From an uncultured Bacilli bacterium (GTDB lineage Bacteria > Bacillota_I > Bacilli_A > RFN20 > CAG-449): a stretch of DNA of 57,191 bases. The number at the start of each line of letters is the position of its first letter. Position 1 is the first letter of the stretch. Both the position numbers and the translations under genes were made by a program. Shown piece by piece: positions 23,038 through 31,429 of this stretch. A model generated the notes under the pieces. That model was not told where the DNA came from. It saw nothing but the letters and a program-made list of their open reading frames with translations, and ran no database searches. The stretch lies in NCBI GenBank assembly GCA_944332075.1, contig CALVJL010000009.1, positions 1 through 57,191 on the forward strand, given 5' to 3'.

Positions 23038-23937
23038 TCAAAAAAGGTTATCGCTTTTCAAATAGACGAGTCCCGCGGCGATGACATCAAGAAAATCATA
23101 AATTAAGATATCATCTTGATAATAATCAATGGTTTCTTTAGAAATCTTAGTTAATGATAAATATAAATCTTTGAAAGAAACAAATAGATGTCTTTTTCTT
23201 TTATAGATATCATCTGCATCATAAAGAAGCGTCCTAATCATCCATCTTTGATGCTCAATATCGCTTAAAAAAGCAAATGGTGATTCATTAAGATAATTAT
23301 TAAAGATATAAAGGTATAATTCTTCTCCGCGTAAAGAGAGAATCTCTTTTATCATCTGCGTAAATTCATTTTTTTGATAGGTAGTTTTTAGATATTTTTC
23401 AACATAGAGATAAAGAACATCGGAAAAAATATAATGAAAAGAATAATCATTTATTAAATTATGATCAATTGGCAATAAAATGTGAAAGTCTTTAATATCC
23501 TTACTTTTACTATCTAAGACCGTTTTAACTATTTCATGGATGCTTTCATCTAATTTAATCAAAGCATTATAATCTTTTAAAAAATAACGAGTTAAGTTGC
23601 TTGTATCATAGATAACAAACTTATCTTCACTTTCTAAGATGTGTTCACCTCCAGAAAAAATATAAGTTCCTTGAGGAAGTTCATCTAGCGAAGAAATTTC
23701 TTGATATTTTAACAAAATAAGTGACGAAATCTTTTCTAGTTTAGAAACTATATCTCTATACATTTTGCCTTTAAAATAGATTTTTTCATCGTTAAAAAGA
23801 CAGAGATTCGCGGATAAAAAATATTTAAACAACTCTTTGTTTGTCTCCGTTTCTCCAATGAAGCAGACATTAAATTTTTGACTAACGATTCTTCTTAATA
23901 CTTCTTGAGAAAAAAGAATTTCTTCTTGACTAATCAT
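23038..23937 (-). CDS. RyR-like domain protein, last gene of the TIR operon
   Basis: Encodes 299 residues. The C-terminal ~85 residues carry the signature of prokaryotic RyR-like domains: E228-H229-x-R231-W232, then R249-x-H250 with LFVSFKDL, then an acidic DYYQDD and a terminal helix. The N-terminal ~220 residues are mixed alpha/beta (FNVCFIGETETNKELFKYFL, KFVIYDTSNLTRYFL) and could be a degenerate Rossmann or SLOG-like part; this is uncertain. The ATG overlaps the stop of the 958-residue gene by four bases (ATGA), so the two proteins are coupled and made together. Both share the RyR-type motif, suggesting they sense the same ligand or form a complex. Confidence 0.75.
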   Translation of the reverse strand: MISQEEILFSQEVLRRIVSQKFNVCFIGETETNKELFKYFLSANLCLFNDEKIYFKGKMYRDIVSKLEKISSLILLKYQEISSLDELPQGTYIFSGGEHILESEDKFVIYDTSNLTRYFLKDYNALIKLDESIHEIVKTVLDSKSKDIKDFHILLPIDHNLINDYSFHYIFSDVLYLYVEKYLKTTYQKNEFTQMIKEILSLRGEELYLYIFNNYLNESPFAFLSDIEHQRWMIRTLLYDADDIYKRKRHLFVSFKDLYLSLTKISKETIDYYQDDILIYDFLDVIAAGLVYLKSDNLF

Positions 23938-26810
23938 AACTTGATTCCGCCTTTATTTTTGAAATAATAGATAACTTTTTGATTATTACCGACACTTAAT
24001 TTATCCTTAAGCGAAGTCAATGAAGAGATATCGTTATAATAGACTAGTTTATAGATATCCTTTAATACATTGCTAGGCGAAGTTTCAATATGACGTAATA
24101 ATTCTTCTAGGGTAGCAAAATTTATTAGTTCATCGACTTTTCCCTTGTTTTGGTCGTTTTCTTTTTCGCTTAGTTTAAAGCGAATGATTAATCTAGCTAA
24201 TTCGTTAAGACCTTCATTGCTAGTCATGCAGCAATGACGTAAGCCGTCTTGACTCTTTTTAAAGCCATCTAAAATTTCTTCTTTGGTTAACGGAACAATA
24301 CCTTCTTCGGCGTTAAGAACATACCAGCGATTATGTTCAATGTTACGAATAATCAAAGCGGATTGATTGATAATTCTATTTAAGTCAAAGGTTAATGCAT
24401 ACAAATCAGTAAATAAGGAAATATCACCTTTTTTTGTCTCTTTAAATTTTACAATATTCTTTTTAAATTCGAGATAGTCATCTTTATAGATTTTTAAAAA
24501 GTGCTTTCTTAATAAATTATAAGTAATTATTTCGCCTTGATAAGTTGATAGAAACTTTTCTGAAAAGATAGGTTTCAAATCATTTTTTGTCAAAAGTAAT
24601 TGGGAATCTTTGCCTTCAATATCATTATTGATGTTAAATGGCTGACGTAACGAAAAATTGATAGAATCTATGACTTTTTGGTTATGCAAAGAAAAATTTT
24701 GTATTTCTTTTAAATTTTCACTCATTTTAAATTTGTAACCGAATAATCCAAGTTTATATGGTAAGGATAAGATAGCTCCGATATTTGCCATCTGCTGATA
24801 ATGGTTTAACGAATTATTCCAAAGCTCAAGAGCGATTTGATAATCGGATAGCTTAATATTCTTTCGCTCATTTTTGTCTTTAATATCTTGAATTTTACTT
24901 TTTGAAGTATAAGAGAAATTTTCCATAGCCGCTAAATCGCGGATATGATCAGAAAGCTCATCGCGGAGATATCCCCCACGTCCAAAAGCGACAATCGGAA
25001 CGGTTTCTAAAATATAAATCGCACGTCTTAAATGCTTAAAGAAATTTAAAGGATTAAGATTTTTATAAGTCTTTTGAAAAAGATGATAATCTTCTTTCTT
25101 GGCAAAGCATTCTTTTAATGTAACATCATCTGCTTGAACATCAAAAACATAGAGCCGAGATGATTCATAATCTTTTCCATAGTCAAATAAGCGTTCACCA
25201 TAGCCATGTTCATTAGTATCTGTAAGTATCTTGACGATTTCTTTAGTTGAAGGAATAGTATCCTTCGCGCGCTTAGACATTATTTCATTAATAAAGCTTC
25301 CATAGTAAAGAGGGTTTGCCATAAAGGCATTGCTCTCTTTAATATATGGATAGACAATTAAAGATTTCTTAAATGATTTATCTTTTAAATTTATATTAAA
25401 GGCTGATGAATAGTTTTTGATAATCCGACGGATATTCATCGCTAAAGTAAGATTAGTAAATGAGGCTCCTAAAGCGATAATTATCATGTGCTGCTGGTTA
25501 TCTTTTAATGAAGGCAAGATAACATCAGTGATGTATTTTCTAATTTGATCTTCTTTATTTAAATCAATATCGTATCCAATAAAGGCATCAGCAAAACTTC
25601 TTTGCTCAAGATATTCTTCTTTGTTTTTAAAAAAGCTGTTGAAAGCATCAAACTGGGAAAGATACGATGAACAGAGATTTTTGCCTTCAGTATCTAAAAT
25701 ATGATAAATAACTTTTTTATCTTTATAAGGCAGTTGATAATTTGGAAACATTTTATTTAATAAACTACGAGAGATATTACCAAAGCCGAAGAAATGAACA
25801 TGGAGCTGAGGTGGATTAGCTATTTTCTTTAAAAAAGCGTATTTATCTTCTTTTAATGTTCCTAAATCAAGAATTCTCGTCAAAGGATTATAGAAAACAA
25901 ATTTTGTTGCAGCCCAATCATATTCGCTAACGAGTTGGATGCAACCATTGCTTTCTTTAGAAAAGTCGAGCTTGCTATTATATGATTCATCTTGATAGCT
26001 AACATAAAAATTTAAAAGCTGCTTAGAAACTTTTCTTTTCATTGCTTTGCTATTACAGAGTTTTAAAGCAATTTTTGCAAATTCAATGTTGTCTTCATCT
26101 CGATAAAATAAGGAATAAACGTTAACCTTGCCGTTAGGAGCAAAAATCATTTTTCTTAATGAAGTTACCGATAAATATTCATTGCTAACATCATAGCCGT
26201 TAATTTTTAAGATATCGGTTAAATGTTCAGCCCGATCAGTTTTCGTTGAAGAAAGTAACACGACAACTTTTAAAACCATTCCGTCAATCTTCTTTAACTT
26301 TTTCAAAAAATAATCAATATCATCAAAAGGTAAATCGGTATAGACGACGTTTTTTACGCATCTTTTCTTATTTCTTAAATCAAAGATATACGGGAGAGAC
26401 TTAATGCTTTTTCCAAAGTTAAACATCTTCGCGCGTAAGGTTTTAATGAAGGTAGTAAGGATAACTAATGAAACGGATAACAAACAGATTAATTGATCAA
26501 TATAAATTATCAAAATTTTATAAGTATCGTACATCCATGGATAGCCTTGGAAAGTATAATTTAAATCCTCAACGCTGTTACCTAAAGCAAACATGCTAAT
26601 CGCTTTAAAAATCGGCGAAAAGATTAAATCGCCAATATCTTCATGGTTAATTAGACCTGATAAAAAGAAAATAAAGAATGATAATAAAAATAAGGTGACA
26701 AGTAAAAAGGTATTGTTGCAATAAGTTTTATATTTAGTGTTTTTAAACGTGAAAAAGACAATAAAGATTATCGGTATCAATATTGCTAAAATTAAAATAA
26801 CTATCTGCAT
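23934..26810 (-). CDS. Large membrane protein with Rossmann-like region and C-terminal RyR-like domain
   Basis: Encodes 958 residues. Three or four hydrophobic helices occupy residues 2-22, 34-54 and 98-123, with a weaker one at 62-76; the arrangement suggests a small channel-like pore but no selectivity filter was recognised. Residues 150-250 are alpha/beta. HVHFFGFGNISRSLL at 337-351 has the G-x-G-x-x-x-R shape of TrkA-N/RCK-type dinucleotide-binding domains, and MIIIALGASFTNLTLAMNI at 442-460 continues that fold. Near the C-terminus, E825-H826-x-R828-W829 and R858-H859 match the RyR-like domain. Known relatives combine TrkA-N and RyR parts. A plausible job is a ligand-gated membrane effector of the neighbouring TIR protein; this is inference. 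Confidence 0.8.
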   Translation of the reverse strand: MQIVILILAILIPIIFIVFFTFKNTKYKTYCNNTFLLVTLFLLSFFIFFLSGLINHEDIGDLIFSPIFKAISMFALGNSVEDLNYTFQGYPWMYDTYKILIIYIDQLICLLSVSLVILTTFIKTLRAKMFNFGKSIKSLPYIFDLRNKKRCVKNVVYTDLPFDDIDYFLKKLKKIDGMVLKVVVLLSSTKTDRAEHLTDILKINGYDVSNEYLSVTSLRKMIFAPNGKVNVYSLFYRDEDNIEFAKIALKLCNSKAMKRKVSKQLLNFYVSYQDESYNSKLDFSKESNGCIQLVSEYDWAATKFVFYNPLTRILDLGTLKEDKYAFLKKIANPPQLHVHFFGFGNISRSLLNKMFPNYQLPYKDKKVIYHILDTEGKNLCSSYLSQFDAFNSFFKNKEEYLEQRSFADAFIGYDIDLNKEDQIRKYITDVILPSLKDNQQHMIIIALGASFTNLTLAMNIRRIIKNYSSAFNINLKDKSFKKSLIVYPYIKESNAFMANPLYYGSFINEIMSKRAKDTIPSTKEIVKILTDTNEHGYGERLFDYGKDYESSRLYVFDVQADDVTLKECFAKKEDYHLFQKTYKNLNPLNFFKHLRRAIYILETVPIVAFGRGGYLRDELSDHIRDLAAMENFSYTSKSKIQDIKDKNERKNIKLSDYQIALELWNNSLNHYQQMANIGAILSLPYKLGLFGYKFKMSENLKEIQNFSLHNQKVIDSINFSLRQPFNINNDIEGKDSQLLLTKNDLKPIFSEKFLSTYQGEIITYNLLRKHFLKIYKDDYLEFKKNIVKFKETKKGDISLFTDLYALTFDLNRIINQSALIIRNIEHNRWYVLNAEEGIVPLTKEEILDGFKKSQDGLRHCCMTSNEGLNELARLIIRFKLSEKENDQNKGKVDELINFATLEELLRHIETSPSNVLKDIYKLVYYNDISSLTSLKDKLSVGNNQKVIYYFKNKGGIKL

Positions 26811-26822
26811 ATGTCACCTCAT

Positions 26823-28184
26823 TTAAACTCTTTTAGCTACAGCGACAAAATCAATTTCGCAATACCAAAAAGATTCTTCAGAAAATTTGTTTTCAAGCAT
26901 ATCAAGCGCATAGACCATCGCTTCTAAAGCGTTCTTTTTTTCAATATTATATGGATCTTTTTCGAAAGCGTTTTGAAGATAATTTTTACGGTAAGCAAAT
27001 CTTTCAAGAAACACATCTTCTTTTTCGTCTATATCAAGAGACGAAGTATCCTTAATATAAGACATCATTTTGACGTTTTTATATCCCGAGGCAATTAGTT
27101 GACCATAGAGTTTTCTTCCGTTAAAACGGTCAGAAATACCATCGGTTTTGACGTGCATATCGATGATTTTGTTAATTAATCCGTCATCTCCGCAGCTGAC
27201 CATGGATCCGTCATCGGAACCCCTTAAAATAATAAAACCGTCCTTAGAAAGATATTTCCGAATTTTTCTTAAAAAACGGTTTGGGTTTTTTAAGTGATGG
27301 ATAACCAATGAAGAGAAGATAATATCAAATTTATCAATACTATACTTTTCCATTAAGGAAGTGAGATTATCATCAAAATCTTCGTTTTCTAAATCAAGAT
27401 ATTCATAGACAATGTTATCGGAATGATTATGTTCTCGTGCATATTCTAAACATTTATTTGAAATGTCTACGCCTAAGGTAAAAGCATTTTCGATTTTTGA
27501 AAATCGATTAGAAGTTACATATCCATAAGCGCATCCTGCATCAAGAATATATATTTTATCTTTGTGCGGTAAATTTTTAAGGCAATATTCGATTGCAGGC
27601 ATATCGGCCGGACGGGTATAATCACTTTGAATTTTTAATCGTTTCAACTCTTTGCCTTTAGTAGGGTCGTATGTCGAGACGTTTTTTCCGGTAGTTAAAG
27701 ATTTTTCAAATTTTTTTTCTTTATATTCGTTATTCTTTTTAAGGCAAGCGATAATAAACATCACCACTTCTTCAACATTATTATTAATTTGAAATGTTTC
27801 ATAACCTCTTAAAGAACGCGGTAAAGAATTAACGTTGATATTTTTTATATAAGGAACGATATAAGCATTTTCTTTTCGCCCAGCTAAAATATCTTCATGG
27901 AAGGATTCGCGTTCATATTTAACCCATTTGCTGTTTAAGAATTCTTCGTTTGTTGCAATTGCTACAAGAACTTTGCTATCATCAAGGGCTTTTTCAATGG
28001 CATCTTTATAGGCGGCTTCGCCAAATTGAAATAATCTAACATTGCTAAAAAAAGCTTTAATGCCGCGCTGCTCTAATTCTTTATAAAGAATTGCTGCGAT
28101 TTGGCTATCTTCGGTAGGATTATTGTCTTTATCGGTGTTTTTAAAAGAAATAAAGACATCATATCTAATGTCGTTCATAGGCAT
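26823..28184 (-). CDS. TIR domain fused to a class I SAM-dependent methyltransferase
   Basis: Encodes 453 residues. Residues 6-145 are a bacterial TIR domain: YDVFISFKNTD, then SNVRLFQFGEAAYKDAIEKA, then W87-V-K-Y-E91, where E91 matches the catalytic Glu of NAD-cleaving TIR domains. Residues 195-450 are a Rossmann methyltransferase: motif I YILDAGCAYGYVT (212-224), the acidic residue D240 in LGVDIS, and motif IV FDIIFSSLVIHHL (286-298). The substrate cannot be read from sequence. The ATG overlaps the flavin reductase stop (TAATG), and the 958-residue membrane gene starts 12 bases after its stop. TIR proteins often convert NAD into toxic depletion or signal nucleotides; here a signal might be methylated or sensed by the RyR proteins (inference). 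Confidence 0.88.
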   Translation of the reverse strand: MPMNDIRYDVFISFKNTDKDNNPTEDSQIAAILYKELEQRGIKAFFSNVRLFQFGEAAYKDAIEKALDDSKVLVAIATNEEFLNSKWVKYERESFHEDILAGRKENAYIVPYIKNINVNSLPRSLRGYETFQINNNVEEVVMFIIACLKKNNEYKEKKFEKSLTTGKNVSTYDPTKGKELKRLKIQSDYTRPADMPAIEYCLKNLPHKDKIYILDAGCAYGYVTSNRFSKIENAFTLGVDISNKCLEYAREHNHSDNIVYEYLDLENEDFDDNLTSLMEKYSIDKFDIIFSSLVIHHLKNPNRFLRKIRKYLSKDGFIILRGSDDGSMVSCGDDGLINKIIDMHVKTDGISDRFNGRKLYGQLIASGYKNVKMMSYIKDTSSLDIDEKEDVFLERFAYRKNYLQNAFEKDPYNIEKKNALEAMVYALDMLENKFSEESFWYCEIDFVAVAKRV

Positions 28185-30402: not shown

Positions 30403-30488
30403 CTTTTCACTGACTAAAGAACATATTAATATTTCTAAATAGAACTTTTTCTTTTGTTTTTTTGTCCTATGAAAAGGAGTGATTGAAG

Positions 30489-30680
30489 ATGGAAAAAATT
30501 GCACAAAACATTAAAAACATTCGCTTAATCAACCAACTCACTCAGGTGGAAATGGGCAACCTTCTTGGCTATAGTGAACGACAAATCCGCCGCTTTGAAA
30601 CTATTGGCACTTCTTCTCTCGCGGTGATTAAAAGAATAAGCGAAGTATTCAATGTATCAATTATGGAAATCCTCTCTTAA
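30489..30680 (+). CDS. Small XRE-family HTH regulator
   Basis: Encodes 63 residues from the ATG at 30489, nine bases after AAGGAG; an in-frame TTG two codons upstream lies too close to that site. LTQVEMGNLLGYSERQIRRF is the helix-turn-helix, and the protein ends after one more helix (VIKRISEVFNVSIMEILS). The stop codon lies in the loop of its own terminator. It sits between the barnase-like lipoprotein and the large structured RNA transcribed toward it. It might control the RNA or the lipoprotein, but no operator was identified. Confidence 0.82.
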   Translation: MEKIAQNIKNIRLINQLTQVEMGNLLGYSERQIRRFETIGTSSLAVIKRISEVFNVSIMEILS

Positions 30681-30692
30681 GAGGATTTTTTT
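30668..30692 (+). terminator. Intrinsic terminator of the HTH gene
   Basis: AATCCTCT pairs with AGAGGATT around CTTA, which contains part of the stop codon, followed by T5. It stands back to back with the terminator of the minus-strand RNA. Confidence 0.85.
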
Positions 30693-30695
30693 CAT

Positions 30696-30720
30696 AAAAA
30701 AAGTTACCTTTAAGGTAACT
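30696..30720 (-). terminator. Intrinsic terminator of the large structured RNA
   Basis: On the minus strand AGTTACCTT pairs with AAGGTAACT and is followed by a T7 run. It lies directly after the closing helix of the RNA. Confidence 0.8.
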
Positions 30721-31304
30721 AATTCATCGTTCCCTGAAAATTAGAATGTTACGGATCTTCACCCTACTGAATTTATTGTAATCTGTTATTCATGCACGTT
30801 CACGTTGGGCTGAATTTAAAGGAGCTACCTTTAAACTTCCAAAATGGGATAAACCGAACAACGGGATGAACTAAATCATCATCCAACTTTCACAGAGCTT
30901 CAGCTATAAGCATACAAATTCCTTACTTTGCAAACATGGACATTCTGCTACTCAATCCTTCTCAAACAGTTATAGCTAATTACTTAGCATCAAGTCGCAC
31001 GCTTAGTTGAGAGCGAAGAAACAAGTTTCTCAGGCTTGCTTCTTGACGCGGGACATATCACTATGGAGCCTCTTATCGCGCCTGATGAGAAGACATTTAC
31101 ATCGAACAACATTCAGCGACATTGACCTCAGCGCATTTGTTAATGCGGATACCTTTTTGTTTCCTCAAGGTCTCACCTACATCTGCAGTATCCCGCAGAA
31201 GAGATTATCAAGGCCACGCCTCGGCCATCGCACAAGATGCCTGCACCGAGGTGTAACAAACTAATTTTCAAAGAACGATATTTGTTACTAAGGGTTTCTT
31301 AGTA
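30696..31304 (-). ncRNA. Large structured non-coding RNA (~600 nt), ROOL-class candidate
   Basis: No convincing protein is encoded here on either strand, yet the region is much richer in G+C and hairpins than other spacers. The two ends of the minus-strand transcript are complementary: 31261-31279 pairs with 30726-30744 over 19 bases (two G-U pairs), then a 2x2 internal loop, then 31253-31258 with 30747-30752 over 6 more. Inside are further helices: AGCTATAA/TTATAGCT (30902/30970), TTTAAAGG/CCTTTAAA, GCATT/AATGC, CTGC/GCAG and CCTCGG/CCGAGG. It has its own -10 and an intrinsic terminator. Length, closing stem and host type fit ROOL RNAs of gut Firmicutes; OLE (no OapA-like neighbour) and GOLLD (longer) fit less well. 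The class is inference from size and shape. Confidence 0.75.
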
Positions 31305-31309
31305 AAGTT

Positions 31310-31315
31310 ATTATA
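31310..31315 (-). promoter_or_regulatory. -10 element of the large structured RNA
   Basis: TATAAT on the minus strand predicts a start near 31303. A small hairpin, TACTAAG/CTTAGTA (31286-31304), would open the transcript. No good -35 was seen. Confidence 0.5.
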
Positions 31316-31429
31316 AGCGATAAAAACTTAATTATGTGAGGACATGTTTTGTCCGGTTAGAAAGTTTATGTTCTTAACTTTATTTATAAATTAATTTGTT
31401 ATAAGATAAAAATATATAAGAGGTTTATC

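Follow-up and report, generated by a model that had tools for sequence, protein, structure and literature searches.

A chromosomal ROOL RNA gene and its conserved association with a small XRE-type HTH gene and an operator-like palindrome

The window analyzed here, which is the whole stretch of 57,191 nucleotides (57 kb) from an uncultured Bacilli bacterium, carries on the chromosome a gene for ROOL RNA, which belongs to a known class, and across the order to which this bacterium belongs the RNA shows a conserved linkage to a small gene for an XRE-type helix-turn-helix (HTH) protein and to an operator-like palindrome. The best explanation, to which we assign a probability of roughly 0.78, is a chromosomal ROOL whose linked HTH protein binds GGACA-N5-TGTCC and thereby switches ROOL. 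The initial annotation of this DNA, which had put the RNA forward as a ROOL candidate, mentioned neither the HTH gene, nor the operator, nor the setting outside prophages and tRNA islands. An HTH gene beside ROOL has already been reported for Ligilactobacillus salivarius (PMC5643018); we found no earlier report of a dedicated HTH subfamily, of a private operator, or of a minimal cassette at changing sites, nor of the alternative linkage to a WYL gene or the division between copies in phages and in cells, both described below, with the qualification that a linked HTH gene may be mentioned in Weinberg 2017 or Ling et al. 2025.

When all 4227 Rfam models were scanned against the 57-kb window, ROOL (RF03087) was the single match, at 30734-31274 on the minus strand, covering model positions 1-574 of 574 with 196.9 bits (E 6.9e-43), about twice the curated cut-off of 99.1 bits, and the proposed ROOL identity is thus borne out. 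The GOLLD, OLE, and HEARO models, which had been suggested for comparison, gave no match at gathering score in the whole window and are ruled out as identities, and a permissive Rfam scan of the locus returned ROOL and two weak, unrelated sRNA models, nothing else. The earlier description of a minus-strand, non-coding RNA of ~600 nt with its own -10 and terminator holds as well, with the full-length RF03087 match, a TATAAT at 31315-31310, and a terminator hairpin recovered by a scan; a protein frame, the conservation of which would have spoken for a coding region, is neither conserved nor open through the region across relatives, and this rules out a protein-coding reading. The features of the locus are as follows:

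30695..31303, minus strand: ROOL transcription unit (full-length RF03087; ends inferred from the -10 and the terminator)
Start ~31303, end in the T run near 30695, minus strand: predicted ends of the ROOL transcript
30734..31274, minus strand: ROOL core, covariance-model match 1-574 of 574 (Rfam and covariation)
31253..31279 (31279-31261 and 31258-31253), minus strand: closing helix, 5' arm (sequence, fold, and duplex)
30726..30752 (30752-30747 and 30744-30726), minus strand: closing helix, 3' arm (sequence, fold, and duplex)
31286..31304, minus strand: 5'-terminal hairpin UACUAAG..CUUAGUA, preceding the closing helix (fold)
30702..30720, minus strand: intrinsic terminator stem-loop of ROOL, with the T run to 30695 (terminator scan)
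31310..31315, minus strand: ROOL promoter -10, TATAAT (sequence; fixed operator spacing in relatives)
31340..31354, no strand assigned: candidate operator palindrome GGACAAAACATGTCC, followed by a conserved TCAC beside the -35 position
30483..30680, plus strand: small protein of the XRE/Cro HTH type, 65 aa (63 aa if started at ATG 30489), convergent with ROOL and its candidate dedicated regulator (HTH_3 match and ROOL linkage)
30667..30692, plus strand: terminator-like hairpin of the HTH gene, overlapping its stop codon (by eye)

In the window, the HTH gene lies directly 3' of ROOL in convergent orientation, and its product matches Pfam HTH_3 (PF01381) over residues 10-62 with 25.6 bits against a gathering score of 23. 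To place this arrangement, we use a cellular set of 20 ROOL loci from the window's order (other orders were sampled unevenly), the later members of which were fetched by Rfam in another family and by a DNA pattern internal to the RNA; one sequence that fits this pattern, L069, is not ROOL, and L050 is the same locus as L054. A homologue of the HTH gene stands beside ROOL in 8 of the 9 first-set loci of the order, and the profile built from these eight proteins finds it again, at 68-126 bits, in 7 of the 8 later loci with readable flanks, all seven of which lie outside the training set; the exception is L054. Across the 78 genomes searched in the order, HTH proteins outside ROOL loci stay at or below 54 bits; the 106-129 bits of the ROOL-linked proteins are those of the training set, and the informative part of this comparison is the absence of others. 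The dedicated subfamily is present in all operator-bearing loci with readable flanks (15/15), and its HTH gene is the only gene common to the loci, the window's genus aside. It is usually convergent with and adjacent to ROOL, the exceptions being the larger distances at L011 (0.9 kb, first set) and L055 (2.2 kb) and the arrangement at L071, where it is codirectional and upstream of ROOL; at L060, the contig ends ahead of the position at which alignment with L058 places the gene.

The second conserved element is the palindrome GGACA-N5-TGTCC, which is found upstream of ROOL in 18 of the 20 cellular loci, 14 times exactly and four times with one mismatch, the aligned copies having nearly invariant arms and a variable five-base loop. 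All 18 are followed, 23-24 nt past the palindrome, by a -10-like hexamer (14 by scan, 4 by eye), and the operator centre lies ~44 bp ahead of the predicted start (43-44 across relatives). The -35 of the ROOL promoter in the window is poor, which is why a sigma-70 scan reported no promoter at ROOL. The exact palindrome has a single occurrence in the 57-kb window and in the 1.47-Mb genome, at ROOL, and the same once-per-genome placement at ROOL holds in seven genomes, the window's own included (G000, G002, G011, G015, G045, G086, and G114); of 15 genomes without ROOL, 13 lack it altogether, and within 277 kb of locus DNA, 17 of the 19 GGACN7GTCC sites are just upstream of ROOL. Operator and HTH gene occur together in 15 loci and are both missing in 2, the flank being cut in 3 more, and by our own arithmetic the chance of such co-occurrence (15 with both, 2 with neither) is 1 in 136; as the window and L008 are near copies, ~14 of these loci are independent.

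Several observations on these elements stand somewhat to the side. At L059, two operator copies (6767 and 6986), 219 bp apart, lie upstream of one ROOL, the first being followed by another promoter-like sequence, and a second GGAC-N7-GTCC palindrome, of the form GCGGAC..GTCCGC, occurs upstream of the HTH gene at L068 (3833) and ~141 nt ahead of the HTH start codon at L058; it may serve autoregulation or termination. In six loci (L009, L010, L015, L016, L056, and L057), the HTH frame overlaps the ROOL 3' end in antisense by 70-100 nt, which would give a tail-to-tail overlap of the two transcripts. The 5' leader of the HTH gene contains a stretch able to pair over 7-9 nt with the bases immediately preceding the start codon, for example, in L056, L058, L063, L068, L011, L016, and L071, with the complementary sequence varying on both sides between loci; such pairing of at least 7 nt is present in 9 of 15 loci, against 0.7 expected from shuffles, is absent from the window's own leader, and possibly represents a translation-controlling hairpin or pseudoknot. 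Pairing of ROOL itself with the HTH leader was considered and rejected, own-locus pairing being no better than cross-locus pairing.

In the mechanism that we propose, the HTH protein (30483-30680) would bind 31340-31354 as a dimer, and the bound dimer would switch transcription of ROOL, which then most likely folds and assembles into an octameric cage, as its family membership suggests; for the cell, the unit would be an accessory, switchable cassette of ~0.9 kb, consisting of operator, ROOL, and HTH gene, placed at unrelated chromosomal sites. That this cassette serves in stress or phage conflict is a weakly held guess. With respect to the sign of control, the HTH protein appears somewhat likelier to be an activator than a repressor, because the operator centre is located 43-44 bp ahead of the start and beside a poor -35, as in the case of lambda cI at PRM: lambda cI activates PRM from a site centred near -42, at a promoter with a poor -35 and a good -10, and an operator near -43/-44 together with a poor -35 is typical of class-II activation. 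The opposite sign, with the HTH protein as a ROOL repressor in a switch resembling phage immunity or an antitoxin, from which stress or infection would release the RNA, is less favored and still a credible contender, given that the protein resembles RstR, PezA, and phage repressors, that the operator abuts the -35 and a bound dimer could block polymerase, and that the leader pairing before the start codon in nine loci makes HTH synthesis seem tightly controlled; it is opposed by the class-II geometry and by expression in L. salivarius, where the HTH gene next to ROOL peaks in the strains with the most ROOL (PMC5643018), an independent hint that also favors the proposed mechanism as such. Against the model of an HTH protein acting on ROOL, whichever the sign, stand the weak correlation between ROOL and HTH distances (Mantel r 0.34, 289 of 5000 permutations being as high), with which co-divergence of the two was set aside as a line of support, the distant HTH genes of L011 and L055, the arrangement at L071, and the unmatched HTH protein of L. 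salivarius.

It is improbable that the palindrome instead terminates the upstream gene or marks where a mobile cassette ends, with the HTH gene as a passenger. The cassette does occur at unrelated sites, T-rich stretches follow some of the palindrome copies, and the exact-match sites inspected elsewhere are mostly terminator- or coding-like; nevertheless, nearly invariant arms around a variable loop are unlike terminators, the -10 follows at a fixed distance, the cassettes showed neither a matching end nor a transposase, and palindrome and HTH gene are either both present or both absent.

The two operator-less loci, L017 and L054, have no HTH gene, and the gene that they have in common encodes a divergent WYL-domain protein directly upstream, at the ROOL promoter. 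The two WYL proteins share 27% identity (E 4e-35); the homologue at L054 matches the WYL model of PADLOC, and the nearest solved structure to that of L017 is WYL1 of the type VI-D CRISPR-Cas (Cas13d) system, 6oaw. Relatives of the protein were not found in viral contigs. With L017 and L054 carrying this gene, a regulator-type gene is linked to ROOL at every cellular locus of the order whose flanks can be read.

The surroundings of some of these loci deserve a separate mention. Next to or between ROOL and the HTH gene are found a HepT plus nucleotidyltransferase pair (L011, 7541-8364), a double TIR protein that is ThsB-like (L055, 7871-9973), a TIR-NB-ARC-TPR protein (L068, 3893-6280), a HEPN protein of the pEK499_p136 type (L056, 8075-8785), and a Macro-domain protein (L016, 7521-8045), and near the window ROOL lie a TIR-methyltransferase fusion and a large protein (23934-28184), homologues of which are again found together near the ROOL and HTH genes of L055 (10619-14452), in a genome from another family. 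The defence- or toxin-antitoxin-like genes at five ROOL loci, counted without a random-locus control, make a link to defence only a lead. We consider it possible, if rather doubtful, that the chromosomal ROOLs form switchable regulator modules, with either an XRE protein and a private operator or a WYL protein, that act in phage or mobile-element conflict.

ROOL is present as one copy in the window's own genome, in 3 of 3 genomes of the genus, in 6 of 18 of the family, and in scattered members of the order (Rfam). The usual context of this RNA in phages, prophages, and tRNA arrays, which is frequent and not defining, is not encountered in the window. Since ROOL has usually been described from phages and prophages (PMC12286853) and a phage-type repressor adjoins it here, the locus might be seen as a decayed prophage fragment in which the RNA is no longer used, a reading that we regard as very improbable and reject: there are no tRNA genes in the 57-kb window and no phage-specific genes beside its ROOL, the genes around it are of metabolic, transport, or lipoprotein type (flavin reductase, acetyltransferase, exonuclease-type enzyme, chromate transporters, and Ig-domain lipoprotein), and their matches to phage families involve domains shared with cells only. 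Furthermore, two other species of the genus retain the flanking genes on both sides at this site; protein identity is mostly >90% in one of these species, where a single additional gene has been inserted next to the HTH gene, and 45-77% in the other for the genes nearest ROOL. ROOL has therefore long been resident at one chromosomal place in the genus. Finally, covariation places the RNA structure under strong selection.

The evidence for that structure begins with the pairing of the RNA ends, which is present as originally described: on the minus strand, 31279-31261 pairs with 30744-30726 over 19 bp, including two G-U pairs, and beyond a 2x2 loop a further 6 bp join 31258-31253 to 30752-30747. 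The duplex, at -40.9 kcal/mol, is far stronger than in any of 30 shuffles (mean -19.8, minimum -31.1), and the 609-nt fold reaches -194.3 kcal/mol compared with -152.2 +/- 4.8 in 20 dinucleotide shuffles (z -8.7). The covariation that had been called for is strong: when 16 relatives are aligned, 79 of the 120 predicted pairs show compensatory two-sided changes, the 120-pair structure being RNAalifold's own prediction on that same alignment. The long closing helix is confined to some loci (the window, L007, L010, L054, L085, and others), most relatives having only the inner 5-7 conserved pairs. The fallback reading of a new large RNA class, for which only the low identity to other ROOLs speaks (~57-72% to the relatives compared), has a negligible probability and is excluded by the full-length Rfam match at twice the cut-off, which is likewise obtained in relatives with an uncut locus.

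A regulator linked in cis, with a private operator, makes a candidate and testable switch for ROOL, and the regulator's signal, once found, would reveal the condition under which ROOL is used. Moreover, one and the same RNA appears to have two lifestyles, sitting among tRNA genes in phages and being subject to a regulator in cells, and because the cellular copy is kept at the same site in three species of the genus, ROOL is indicated to be useful to the bacterium and not to phages alone.

Among known systems, lambda cI at PRM shares with the window, where the site is a candidate one, a site for a small XRE-fold dimer near -42, a poor -35, and a good -10, and differs in that the putative target here is a structured RNA rather than the regulator's own gene. 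WYL1 of type VI-D CRISPR-Cas, which binds single-stranded RNA (6oaw; PMC6547453), is the nearest solved relative of the L017 WYL protein, whereas no CRISPR system is seen beside the ROOLs of L017 and L054, two loci only. In L. salivarius, the lncRNA of megaplasmid pMP118 has a ROOL-adjacent HTH gene, and the authors reported correlated expression and suggested that the HTH protein may affect ROOL expression or stability (PMC5643018); this ROOL (L076; RF03087, 130.4 bits) likewise lies outside a tRNA island and adjoins an XRE-type HTH gene, but the gene is codirectional and of another subfamily, giving no match to our profile, there is no GGACA operator, and the locus is on a plasmid and in another order. 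In L. salivarius UCC118, published mutants have lost either ROOL alone or ROOL together with LSL_1884.

Phage-type ROOLs belong to the same RNA family and are distinguished by nearby tRNA genes and by the absence of the operator and of a linked subfamily HTH gene. The five ROOLs on viral contigs (IMG/VR: L078, L081, L082, L085, and L086; 129-353 bits) each share their contig piece with tRNA genes, which are close to ROOL in four cases and 5 kb away in L078; none of the five has the GGACA operator or an adjoining HTH gene of the subfamily, the best score being 30.6 bits at ~7 kb in L081. Blastn with the window ROOL against phage and plasmid records gave no match, nor did searches of viral contigs with patterns for the operator plus ROOL and for the ROOL of this group.

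The hollow cages formed by ROOL were solved in 2025, with their function unknown and no protein partner identified (PMC12286853; see also the structures of Ling et al., as described in PMC12515178). With RF03087 as a class, the window RNA shares the full-length match, the closing helix, many conserved stems, a poorly conserved variable linker, its own promoter and terminator, and a length of ~540-610 nt; it differs in being chromosomal, in lying outside a tRNA island, and in having a linked, dedicated candidate regulator of the XRE type and a candidate operator at its promoter.
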